From contig NZ_FNOJ01000007.1 of NCBI RefSeq assembly GCF_900107035.1, positions 1-64,000 on the forward strand: a stretch of 64,000 nt of DNA, in the 5' to 3' direction. The notes beneath the pieces were generated by a model that was not told the DNA's origin, ran no database searches, and saw only the letters and a list, made by a program, of their open reading frames with translations. This DNA comes from Alicyclobacillus hesperidum. Its GTDB lineage: Bacteria > Bacillota > Bacilli > Alicyclobacillales > Alicyclobacillaceae. Positions 22,134-25,622 of the stretch are shown in pieces (positions within the stretch are counted from its first letter, which is position 1; the number at the start of each line of letters is the position of its first letter). The position numbers and the translations under genes were made by a program.

Positions 22134-24261
22134 TCATGTCAAACGGGGAGGATTAGCGACAAGATTGGCAATGGTTGCGGCAATGTCCGCCTCTGGACGC
22201 TCACAATGGAAGTGGCGACACACGTAGACAAGCGCTTCGTCCGCTGCCGGTGGGTACGCATTTTCTCCGTTCGGTCGAGCTGATGGCGTCAACAGCACCG
22301 CTTCTGGCAGAAACGCAAGATGAAAGGCTGTCGCCATCGCGCGTACGTCCCCCCTGCCTGGTACTGATGACCACACGACCTCAGTCGTGCCGAGATCGCG
22401 CAACATGGCTGCGGTGACAAGCCATAAATGGTCAACTGGGGCTTCCATCAACCATGTGCCAAACGCATGCAAAAGACGATCCAATCGTTCCGCATACGCT
22501 TCGTCGCCGACAAGCGCGTACAGGCGCTGGAGATTGTGTGCCGCCACGCTGTTGGCCGACGGCGTCGCGCCGTCGTAAACGGTCTTTGGTTGCGCAATGA
22601 GGCGCTCTGCATCGCGGCCATATAGAAAGTAACCACTGCCTTCGCTATCCCAAAAGAGCGTGTCGAGCACAGACTGCCAATGTTGGGCACGACGCAGGTA
22701 GAACGGATCGAGCGTGGCCTCATACAGATCGAGATACGCCGCGATGAGGTAGGCGTGATCGTCCGCATAGGCGAATACGGCTGCATCTTGGTCGCGATAG
22801 CGCGCGAGCAGACGGCCGTCCGGCTTGCGTACAAGCAGGGTTTCCAGCGCCTGAACAGCCCGCACCGCCAGGCCGAGCCAGTGCTCGTCTGCGAAGACAG
22901 CACCGGCTTTAGCGAGTCCGGAAATGGCCAAGGCGTTCCATGCAGTCAAGATTTTATCGTCAAGCCCTGGGTGCTCGCGATGCTCTCGCCATTCGTAGAG
23001 CTTCCGATTGGCTTCGTCGAGCCACTGCCACAACTCGCCTTCCGACATGTTACGCGCGGATGCAAAGGCAGCAATATCGCGATCGACATAGTTAGGCACG
23101 CTGTAGCCCTCGAAGTTACCTTCGTCTGTGATATCGTAAAAAGCGCAGTACCATTCGCCGTCCTCATCGCCAAGCGCAGCCGTCACATCCTCCGGCCGCC
23201 ACACGTAAAAACGCCCTTCTTGACCTTCTGAGTCGGCGTCGAGTGCGCTGTAAAACGCCCCTTCCCGCGAGGTCAGCTCGCGCTCAAGAAACGTGACAAT
23301 CTGCTCGACAAAACGACGGTATTGCGGATTCTGCGTCACCTGATAGGCCTCGGTGTACGCAGTGATAGCCAACGCGTTGTCGTAGAGCATTTTCTCGAAG
23401 TGTGGAACACGCCAGAAGGCATCGGTACTATAGCGGGCGATCCCGCCGCCAACGTGATCGGCAATTCCGCCCCTCATGATGGCATCCAGTGTATCCAAAG
23501 CCATTTGCCGCGCCCCTTGGTCAGAAGCAAATCGGCTGTATCGCAGCAAAAACATGACCTGGTGAAACGCCGGAAACTTGGGCGCATCCCCAAAGCCACC
23601 ATACGCGTTGTCAAAGCGCTCGCGCAGAGAGGCTGCTGCTTGGCGCGCGGCATGTTTGCCGTCGACCTCACCGGGCATCGCGGCAAATATGGGCTGCATA
23701 CGGGTTACCAGCTCGGCACTCGCCGAAACGAGTTTTTCCCGCTCCTCGTCCCATTTTTGGCGCATCATGCGGAGAATGTCTAGAAGTCCCGGGCGCCCGT
23801 AGCGCGCGTTTTTCGGAAAATACGTTCCGGCAAAGAACGGATGCCCGTCCGGCGTCAGAATGACCGTCAGCGGCCAACCACCTTCGCCGGTGACCGCTTG
23901 GCAGTAGGTCATGTAGATGTGGTCGATGTCCGGCCGCTCCTCGCGATCGACCTTAATTGAGACATAGTGTTGATTCAGGTACTGGGCAACTTGTTCGTCT
24001 TCAAACGACTCATGCGCCATGACATGGCACCAGTGACAAGTCGAAATTATTTACTCCATTGCGTGCAGGCGTACTATTCATAGCCCCGTAGGGCTACGAA
24101 TAGCCAATGGATAAAAAAACAGGCTTGGACTCTCGGGCAGCCTTTTGGAAAGCTTCCGGTGCCCAGGGGAACCAATCGACAGGGTTATATGCGTGCTGCA
24201 AGAGATATGGCGATTTTTCATGAATCAAACGGTTTGGCTTGCGCTCATTTTGTGTAGTCAT
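22134..24261 (-). CDS. DUF255 thioredoxin-fold/glycosidase-like protein with a 55-nt interruption (candidate bypass)
   Basis: Homologue of bacterial YyaL/human SPATA20-type proteins: an N-terminal thioredoxin-like DUF255 domain and a long alpha/alpha-barrel region. The ATG at 24261, after AAGGGGAG, gives 55 codons ending PVFLSIGYS at TCG (24099-24097). The next codon is UAG. Family proteins continue directly with [13 protein letters not shown], and that sequence resumes at 24041 after a TCG at 24044-24042. Deleting 55 nt restores a 690-aa protein of normal length with C57-H-W-C60 intact. The downstream 635 codons have no stop. Either ribosomes bypass the gap, or the gene is newly broken. An internal ATG at 24020 would give a product lacking CHWC. 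It lies between nagA and fdhA on the same strand. Confidence 0.85.
24042..24103 (-). other. Candidate translational-bypass element (hairpin, UAG, matched TCG codons)
   Basis: Minus-strand order: take-off codon TCG (24099-24097), stop UAG (24096-24094), and a hairpin CTATTCGTAGCCC (24103-24091)/GGGCTATGAATAG (24086-24074) with 13 pairs including one G-U. Its loop UACG is closed by C-G, a UNCG tetraloop. The gap of 52 nt (24096-24045) ends with GGAG, then TAAATAATT and the landing TCG (24044-24042). Phage T4 gene 60 has the same parts: a take-off codon followed by UAG inside a UUCG-capped hairpin, an about 50-nt gap, a GAG near the landing site and an identical landing codon. The net insertion of 55 nt shifts frame, so stop readthrough alone cannot rescue it. 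Function is inferred. Confidence 0.6.
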
Positions 24262-24380
24262 CGTTGCTCCCCTTCCGAGGAAAATGCATCCTCTTCATGA
24301 TTGTACCCCTGACAAAGGGTCCTACACAAAGAAGCGTTTGCACGCGATGGTTTTGGAAGCTGATTTTCGATGACAGCAGC

Positions 24381-25622
24381 TTATCTGGCAAACACTTGAC
24401 GCCCTGCGATCCACGTTGCGACAACATGCAATCCTTCGTCCAGTACAACGAGATCTGCACGTTTCCCGACCGCGATGGAGCCCTGTGTATGCGCGAGACC
24501 GAGCTCTCTGGCCGGTACCGTCGCCGCCATATAGGCGGCATCCCGCAGATCGATACCTACCTTGCGGACCATGTTGCGGATCGCTTCGTCCATGGTCAAC
24601 GTGCTTCCCGCAAGGTGGTTACCTTCTTTGAGTACAGCCACCCCATCTTGGACGATCACGTCCAGCGCACCAAGCTTATAGTTGCCATCGGCTTTGCCTA
24701 CTGCCGCCATGGCATCGGTAATAAGCACCAGGTTGTCCCGGCCTTTAAGACGATACGCCAGTCTCATCATTTCCGGGGAGACGTGATGTCCGTCGGCGAT
24801 CATCTCACATACGACATCATCAGTTAGCAACGCCGCGGCTACGACTCCGCCTTCGCGATGATGAAGTCCTCGCATCGCATTAAAGAGATGAGTGGCATGC
24901 AAGGCACCCGCCGCAATCGCATCAAGCGTTTGTTGGAATGTTGCGTCCGTGTGGCCAAGCGATACGATAATACCCTGCTCGGTTAGCCAACAAATGGCGT
25001 CTAGAGCACCTTCTAGCTCCGGGGCAATAGTGACCTTCTTCACAAAACCTTCCGCGATACTCGTCAAATGCTTGAGGATATCCATCGATGGGGGAATGAC
25101 AAACTCCGGATTCTGTGCACCACAGCGCTTAGGAGATATAAACGGCCCCTCCAGGTGAATGCCAAGAATCTGTGCACCACCATGAAAGCGGCACGCGCTA
25201 CGCTTTACCACATGGATCACTCGGTCAAGGTCAGCTATTTGTGCTGTCAGCGTTGTCGGAAGCCAACCTGTCGTTCCGTGCCTGGCATGGAATCGGCTTA
25301 TGGCTTCGATGGCGTGAATGGTGCCATCCATCACCTCGTAGCCGTCCCCTCCGTGGATATGTATGTCAATAAAACCAGGCAGAATCCATTGATCGTTTGC
25401 ATCGAACACTGTGATGGAACGACCAGCAAACATGCGCGAAGAGCTTTCTCCATGTCCAATTTCGCGAATCACGCCTTGCTCAACATAAATGTATCCGCCG
25501 TCACAAATGGAATCTTCAAGAACCAGCCTTCCATTACGAATGACGAATGTGGCTGTTGTCCGATCCACGTGTATCGCCCGCTTTGCATTCAATTCATCCA
25601 ACTTATATTTTTCGTGATACAA
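24381..25622 (-). CDS. nagA: N-acetylglucosamine-6-phosphate deacetylase
   Basis: A 413-aa amidohydrolase that converts GlcNAc-6-phosphate to glucosamine-6-phosphate in amino-sugar and wall recycling. Metal and substrate residues are visible in DIHIHGGDGYE, HLEGPFISPKRCGAQNPEF (metal Glu), SLGHTDATF (His), HLFNAMRGLHHREGG (His) and ITDAMAAVG (catalytic Asp). The start is taken as TTG at 25622 behind AGGA; a GTG at 25568 would shorten it by 18 residues, closer to usual NagA length. NagB and a PTS are not nearby. It lies 119 bases upstream of the DUF255 gene on the same strand. Confidence 0.92.
   Translation of the reverse strand: MYHEKYKLDELNAKRAIHVDRTTATFVIRNGRLVLEDSICDGGYIYVEQGVIREIGHGESSSRMFAGRSITVFDANDQWILPGFIDIHIHGGDGYEVMDGTIHAIEAISRFHARHGTTGWLPTTLTAQIADLDRVIHVVKRSACRFHGGAQILGIHLEGPFISPKRCGAQNPEFVIPPSMDILKHLTSIAEGFVKKVTIAPELEGALDAICWLTEQGIIVSLGHTDATFQQTLDAIAAGALHATHLFNAMRGLHHREGGVVAAALLTDDVVCEMIADGHHVSPEMMRLAYRLKGRDNLVLITDAMAAVGKADGNYKLGALDVIVQDGVAVLKEGNHLAGSTLTMDEAIRNMVRKVGIDLRDAAYMAATVPARELGLAHTQGSIAVGKRADLVVLDEGLHVVATWIAGRQVFAR

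Follow-up and report, generated by a model that had tools for sequence, protein, structure and literature searches.

Architecture of the Interrupted Gene

How is a conserved bacterial gene expressed when a stop codon and a stretch of noncoding sequence interrupt its reading frame after 55 codons? The locus that raises this question lies in a 64,000-nucleotide stretch of Alicyclobacillus hesperidum contig NZ_FNOJ01000007.1 (the window), where a DUF255/Thioredox_DsbH gene (PF03190), running on the minus strand from 24261 to 22134, is split into two ORFs (Table 1). ORF1 is 55 aa long (24094–24261 when its stop is included), and the C-terminal part, read from 24044, comprises 636 aa up to its stop. 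Because their matches to the 163-position PF03190 profile adjoin, ORF1 and ORF2 represent two parts of one domain; a search of NCBIfam gave no match for either ORF. On the coding strand, the site reads GGC TAT TCG, then 52 nt that include UAG, a hairpin, and GGAG, then TCG, followed by ACT TGT CAC TGG TGC. The initial annotation had proposed a bypass element resembling that of T4 gene 60 here, and the positions that it gave for take-off codon, stop, hairpin, GGAG, and landing TCG were all confirmed on the sequence.

Table 1. Features of the interrupted DUF255 gene (window coordinates)
Feature	Position	Strand	Description
ORF1	24097..24261	-	N-terminal 55 codons, the last being the take-off TCG; PF03190 positions 1–47, E 1.9e-19
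Take-off codon TCG (Ser)	24097..24099	-	Gapped sites of relatives likewise have a Ser codon here
Stop codon UAG	24094..24096	-	Directly 3′ of the take-off codon; a stop here in 82/82 full gapped genes
Take-off hairpin	24074..24103	-	13 pairs including one G·U, UACG loop; 5′ arm holds take-off codon and stop
Coding gap	24042..24096	-	55 nt with the landing codon, 52 nt without it
SD-like GGAG	24054..24057	-	Ends 9 nt before the landing codon; enriched in long gaps
Landing codon TCG	24042..24044	-	Identical to the take-off codon; match supported by a permutation test among gap clusters
Putative left att half-site (attR remnant)	24032..24057	-	Predicted for the window copy by homology to the att palindromes of relatives
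Putative crossover centre	between 24032 and 24031	-	Relatives' palindromes are centred 10 nt past the first base of the resume codon
ORF2	22134..24041	-	Resume codon ACT (TCHWC...) through the stop; PF03190 positions 47–162

The two arms of the window hairpin are 13 nt each (24103–24091/24086–24074), and the 96-nt RNA around them folds with −32.1 kcal/mol (z −3.47), an energy equalled in 0 of 200 shuffles. T4 gene 60, as described in excerpts of two papers, has a take-off codon followed by UAG in a small hairpin, a 50-nt gap, and an identical landing codon (PMC11194080; PMC5009743); its sequence record, which we checked, has GGA, TAG, a 50-nt gap ending in GGA, and a GAG 6 nt before the landing site. 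The DUF255 site shows the same order of take-off codon, stop, hairpin, gap, landing codon, and SD-like element, including the stop 3′ of take-off, the codon match (TCG/TCG in the window), and the tetraloop stem-loop. Gene 60 also carries a nascent-peptide signal and a 5′ stem-loop, and the comparison covers the other elements. Upstream of ORF1, a promoter-like sequence at 24391–24363 matches at 9/12 positions, as a consensus match only.

Recurrence of the Gap and Selection on Its Flanks

The initial annotation had suggested looking for the gap in close relatives. We searched 59 Alicyclobacillales genomes and obtained a match in 48, of which 41 are gapped, 5 carry a continuous DUF255 gene (G029, G031, G063, G054, and G061), and 2 place the site at a contig edge where it cannot be read (G005 and G050). 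Of the 46 genomes that could be read, 41 are interrupted at this site; all 41 have a stop directly after the Ser codon, and the loci of this order were fetched regardless of frame length, so that this count is unbiased by frame. The gap also appears in 40 further Bacillota genomes (three samples: 13 + 18 + 9), which show its spread, not its prevalence, because most were chosen on account of their short open frame, and which for the same reason are not an unbiased test of the stop. Together with one viral contig, the set of full gapped genes numbers 82 (41 + 40 + 1), and 51 distinct ungapped sites were read by the same script as the gapped ones. The counts leave out L007 (a spurious regex row on the other strand) and L126 (ungapped, with the Thr codon lost), and L117 (TCT TAG, 21-nt gap) was missed by the regex and is absent from the 92 gapped sites considered below. 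A contig scan of relatives covered seven loci, from A. tengchongensis, A. sacchari, A. acidiphilus, A. mali, A. sendaiensis, A. fructus, and Paenibacillus sp. H1-7, the last of which is without the gap.

To characterize selection around the gap, we compared six Alicyclobacillus species that share a 33-nt gap (15 pairs). The last 47 codons of ORF1 have a mean pN of 0.005 and pS of 0.487, and the first 47 codons of ORF2 have a mean pN of 0.028 and pS of 0.431; both flanks of the gap are under strong purifying selection. These data bear on the simplest explanation of a broken frame, a pseudogene or an assembly error. The contig of one close relative does end inside the gap, as an assembly problem might produce; on the other hand, the same site is interrupted in 81 genomes, and pN/pS of the N-terminal part is about 0.01 across the six species. 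Recurrence and selection together exclude this explanation, to which we assign next to no probability.

The contig end just mentioned belongs to A. tengchongensis, the closest relative (L003/L062), and lies 13–16 nt short of the resume codon; assemblies may be broken at the gap by its hairpin in this way.

Stop Codon, Gap Length, and Landing Codon

The codon after Ser is a stop in all 82 full gapped genes (TAG in 68, TGA in 10, and TAA in 4), and the gap begins with a stop in 92/92 gapped sites overall, four of which (L154, L157, L166, and L178) came from a search pattern that itself began with TAG. Sixteen truncated copies with TAG are no evidence for the stop, because every one except L187 (15 in all) was retrieved with such a pattern. 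Gap length ranges from 15 to 61 nt and falls into all three frames (length mod 3, 47/23/22 among the 92 sites). Readthrough of the stop, which would give a protein with a few extra residues, could draw on the 47 of 92 gaps that are multiples of three; only 24 of the 92, however, keep the frame without meeting a further in-frame stop, and the window gap itself is 55 nt. Frame excludes readthrough as a general mechanism, and we consider it extremely improbable.

The other end of the gap is marked by the landing triplet, which is identical to the take-off codon in 35 of the 92 sites and, counted by gap cluster, in 15 of 40. Identity to the take-off codon occurs only 0–1 times at each of 12 alternative offsets; when the landing triplets were permuted among clusters, the mean was 5.2/40, and 15 was never reached in 20,000 trials. 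The codons differ in the remaining 57/92 sites. Pairing of the take-off tRNA at two or three positions of the landing triplet is possible in 81 of the 82 full genes if G·U is allowed. Sites with an AGC take-off codon land in some cases on AGC or AGT and in others on CGT or AGA, and six genes combine a UCG take-off with a UGG landing triplet, a mismatch in the middle position. In L195, the codon right after the gap encodes Ser, not Thr.

Hairpin and SD-like Element in Two Classes of Gap

The full genes fall into two classes, with long gaps of 29–61 nt in 53 genes and short gaps of 15–21 nt in 29. A UNCG loop is present in 40 of the 53 long-gap genes, and by a simple pairing test the whole stop triplet is paired in 36 and not in 17. 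In a wider set of 54 distinct hairpin regions, UAG lies opposite CUA in 25 and opposite CUG in 9, and the whole stop is unpaired in 17; UNCG counts in this wider set are inflated by truncated copies, from which the full-gene counts are free. All three hairpins that contain UGA place UCA opposite it, in the position that CUA or CUG takes in UAG hairpins; the change is compensatory and affects two positions. Viral contigs hold at least 120 stretches that fit the hairpin pattern, and among the matches listed none has GYS preceding the stop.

The SD-like element follows the same division. In 38 of 53 long gaps, compared with a mean of 6.8 after shuffling, GGAG, GAGG, or AGGA precedes the landing codon by 4–12 nt; the same holds for 7 of the 29 short-gap genes, and counted per gap cluster the element is found in 10/20 long and 2/16 short clusters. 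As a rule, short-gap genes also have no UNCG hairpin. A single mechanism may therefore not fit all genes, since the short-gap genes mostly lack both hairpin and SD-like element.

ORF2 Begins Before Its First Start Codon

ORF2 starts with TCHWCHVM in 81 full genes and with TCHWCHNM in one, while the Thr, Cys, and His codons vary silently; the TCHW part of this motif was partly demanded by the search regex. The first downstream start codon of ORF2 is codon index 6 or 7, past CHWC, in all 82 full genes, and in 68 of the 82 the stretch from the last in-frame stop to the resume codon is free of ATG, GTG, and TTG. Given the selection on both flanks and the conservation of CHWC ahead of the first possible start codon of ORF2, translation of ORF1 and ORF2 appears to extend to the very edges of the gap, and in these 68 genes ORF2 would appear to be translated from a position that has no start codon.

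These observations decide how far termination and reinitiation could account for the site. In that model, GGAG would start ORF2, and the two chains would assemble as a split thioredoxin domain. SD-like sequences before the landing codon in 38/53 long gaps are consistent with it, as are a landing-frame ATG in 9/82 genes and a GTG or TTG in 5/82, and reinitiation is possible in the nine genes because they have that ATG. The start-codon data for the other 68 argue against it, however, as does the location of the first downstream start codon beyond CHWC. Nine genes have a stop directly before the landing codon, and landing-frame ATG is not enriched: it occurs in 9/82 genes, while the other two frames have 11 and 3 and shuffled gaps give 12.6. 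Reinitiation also leaves the match between take-off and landing codons unexplained. We reject it as a general rule on the missing start codons and the absence of ATG enrichment, and regard it as improbable overall.

Displaced 5′ Ends, Viral Contigs, and Integrases

The initial annotation had suggested a search for the hairpin with its UAG in other interrupted genes. A pattern search of the Alicyclobacillales returned 26 matches away from full genes, and 25 of these belong to DUF255 5′ ends that share the stop and the hairpin. The majority of these displaced 5′ ends are cut after TGTCACTG and joined to other DNA, and a few are decayed or at a contig end. Where a copy and a full gene share a contig (G015, G016, G020, G032, and G033), the copy lies upstream on the same strand in 7/7 cases; an eighth copy, in G015, was seen in L187. 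The islands encode a cognate large serine integrase that is nearly complete in L181, L182, L184, and L185 and fragmented in L179, L187, and L189; Resolvase, Recombinase, and Zn_ribbon domains are present in L182, L191, L193, and L195. Integration with replacement of the 5′ end fits these data, given the displaced upstream copies and the island integrases.

The two parts of the gene have different histories. Identities of the N-terminal and C-terminal parts are barely correlated (r 0.18, 41 loci), and in L078 the N-terminal part is closest to L080 of another family (0.89; C-terminal part 0.60), while the C-terminal part is closest to L077 of its own genus (0.88; N-terminal part 0.70).

A DUF255 5′ end is also found in 13 viral loci, of which 7 have a stop-led gap (L191, L192, L193, L195, L204, L205, and L207), 5 are continuous (L194, L196, L210, L211, and L212), and 1 (L208) is odd. 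A serine integrase lies about 60–630 nt from the 5′ copy in six of the seven stop-led loci; the record of the seventh, L192, whose copy is at a contig end, contains no integrase match. In L194, L196, L211, and L212, a continuous GYSTCHWC gives way to other DNA after a short distance, which is what one would expect of attL in an ungapped host. Tail or lysis genes are located near L194 and L195.

In the DUF255 gene of viral contig L208, a short stretch separates SCHW from a downstream HWCHVM in another frame, an arrangement unlike the stop-led gaps. On contig C24 of G042, where the search found no full gene, two displaced 5′ ends (L158 and L178) are separated by 1.7 kb and lie on different strands, unlike the same-strand pattern seen elsewhere.

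att Palindromes and the State of the Window Copy

The relatives combine an integrase near the putative att site with a palindrome centred in the shared core, as in elements that use a large serine integrase. We tested 10 sites for inverted repeats, seeking centres within 5–13 nt. Seven of them have a repeat with 13–18/19 matches whose centre lies 10 nt past the first base of the resume codon. At the other three (L204, L205, and L207) no palindrome is prominent, that of L195 is marginal (matched by 20/1000 shuffles), and the G015 test used a copy other than the nearest. Because the left half of the palindrome occupies the end of the gap, part of the gap, at least, is a recombination half-site.

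The element itself appears to be gone from the window genome (G000), where a pattern search finds the site as a single copy and where the search for a cognate integrase returned only distant relatives, seven serine recombinases (on contigs C35, C31, C28, C8, C9, C21, and C33) that are 24–30% identical to the L182 integrase. Because the genome's own recombinases are this distant, the window copy is most likely a relict attR; it looks domesticated and was most likely kept because the ribosome copes with it. The seven recombinases perhaps belong to other elements.

An alternative is that the gap is removed before translation, either from RNA as an unknown short intron or from DNA by regulated excision. 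Islands with a cognate integrase do exist, and an excerpt of PMC4191935 describes how excision by the serine recombinase of SPbeta reconstitutes spsM in Bacillus subtilis. The window genome nevertheless keeps its gap, although its serine recombinases have only the low identity given above. Splicing, for its part, has no need of a 5′ boundary that is always one of three stop codons, and gaps as short as 15 nt speak against an intron. A search of 23900–24320 against Rfam gave no match at cut-off, the sole listed one being a sub-threshold microRNA model; a known intron or other RNA family is rejected on this basis. We judge removal of the gap from RNA or DNA to be very unlikely.

Islands downstream of the displaced 5′ ends in L181 (G033), L185 (G016), and L179 (G020) carry defence genes identified by PADLOC, which, among 10 proteins scanned, assigned LmuA/LmuB (Lamassu), SIR2 with HerA, GajA/GajB (Gabija), and a PrimPol. 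The DUF255 gene looks like a hot spot for insertion of islands that bear anti-phage defence genes.

Proposed Mechanism

Based on the comparative data, we propose that an element with a serine integrase swaps the 5′ end of the DUF255 gene and that ribosomes bypass the residual att half-site in the gap, a reading that we hold to be very probable. The dedicated large serine integrase of phages and islands would use the CHWC codons of the host DUF255 gene as attB. Beside its own att site, the element would carry a start region and the first ~55 codons of DUF255, likely with a promoter as well. Upon integration, this 5′ copy would replace that of the host, whose displaced 5′ end would be left at the other end of the element, and the left att half-site, 15–61 nt of noncoding sequence, would come to lie between the last N-terminal codon of the element and the crossover. 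A ribosome that reaches the Ser codon would then have a stop codon in its A site and, in long-gap versions, a hairpin as well. Instead of terminating, it would keep its peptidyl-tRNA-Ser, slide across the gap, and re-pair with a matching or near-matching triplet, with the SD-like GGAG placing the landing in many long-gap genes; translation would resume at the Thr of TCHWC to yield the full-length protein. The gene would survive integration because the ribosome hops the gap that holds the left att half-site. In the window lineage, the element would since have been lost and the bypass site retained as a domesticated part of the gene.

The sequences themselves establish the recurrent gap with its stop and codon match, the covariation of the hairpin, selection on both ORFs, the att palindromes, the linked integrases, and the displaced copies; from these we infer the bypassing, whatever its efficiency, as well as a working product and the action of the integrases on these sites. 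The gene 60-like reading of the initial annotation finds strong support in the stop after take-off, the landing-codon match, the UNCG hairpin that covaries with the stop, the SD-like GGAG of most long gaps, and selection on both ORFs. Its other suggestion, a byp-like insertion tolerated through skipping, holds in spirit, in that a mobile unit does appear to be tolerated; that unit, however, is not a 55-nt insert and would instead be a phage or genomic island that brings its own serine integrase and substitutes its copy for the 5′ end of the host gene, an origin that the initial annotation had not foreseen.

Relation to Known Systems

Several known systems share single features with the DUF255 sites. 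T4 gene 60 differs in that DUF255 is a conserved cellular gene of many Bacillota, with Ser at take-off, gaps of variable length, a landing match that is often two of three positions, and a gap that is part of a recombination site. The byp blocks of Magnusiomyces yeast mitochondria, in the portion of PMC5009743 that treats them, are nucleotide blocks inside ORFs that are bypassed, with imperfect codon matches in several cases. The tolerance of in-ORF blocks and the imperfect matches are common to both; the DUF255 case, on the other hand, is bacterial and concerns one gene and one site, spread with an integrase-linked element rather than as many short inserts, and a search of the window genome for byp-like copies in different genes found the one site. 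The Prevotella loescheii adhesin (a 29-nt hop) and the terminase of Streptomyces phage Hau3, proposed hops according to an excerpt of PMC5009743, are single reported cases, whereas the DUF255 sites form a whole homologous set.

Among integrating elements, the dusA islands of Proteobacteria use tyrosine integrases to integrate in a conserved coding region and replace the 5′ end of the gene (PMC4482086, in part). Element sequence substitutes for the 5′ end of the target in both cases, but the new dusA 5′ end is simply coding in the account given there, whereas DUF255 retains a stop and a gap at the junction; the DUF255 elements also use a serine instead of a tyrosine recombinase. The SPbeta and skin prophages of B. 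subtilis lie inside the coding sequences of spsM and sigK, and SPbeta uses a large serine recombinase (PMC4191935, in part). Location within a coding sequence and, for SPbeta, the recombinase type are shared with DUF255, but spsM and sigK are split by these prophages and restored by DNA excision.

Each component was already known separately in the sections of these papers drawn on here: 5′-end replacement at dusA (PMC4482086), excision of a prophage from spsM (PMC4191935), and bypassing in T4 gene 60 and yeast mitochondria (PMC5009743). Among the matches listed for the open-licence literature, no report ties bypassing to an integrase or att site, and the main text of a survey of conserved frameshifts (PMC3711429) contains no DUF255, thioredoxin, YyaL, or Alicyclobacillus. 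Bypassing has so far comprised one well-studied phage case and a group in yeast mitochondria. It seems probable to us, if somewhat less so than the mechanism for this gene, that the sites reflect a general strategy in which an element hides an att half-site in a host ORF and restores the gene by bypassing and a replacement 5′ end; bypassing would then be widespread and horizontally moved in cellular bacterial genes, in two forms, a long hop aided by hairpin and SD-like element and a short stop-hop of 15–22 nt. Its suggested purpose would be to keep the host gene working despite the recombination site within it. Because about 40 gap types of graded length occur at one homologous bacterial site, sequence rules for bypassing (stop identity, hairpin, landing match, and SD spacing) become testable.

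A further DUF255 5′ end was seen on plasmid pHD04 of Paenibacillus sp. (L197, NZ_CP013207.1, 777–1082), where it is truncated but continuous and then gives way to other sequence, as if an att site had been cut there.
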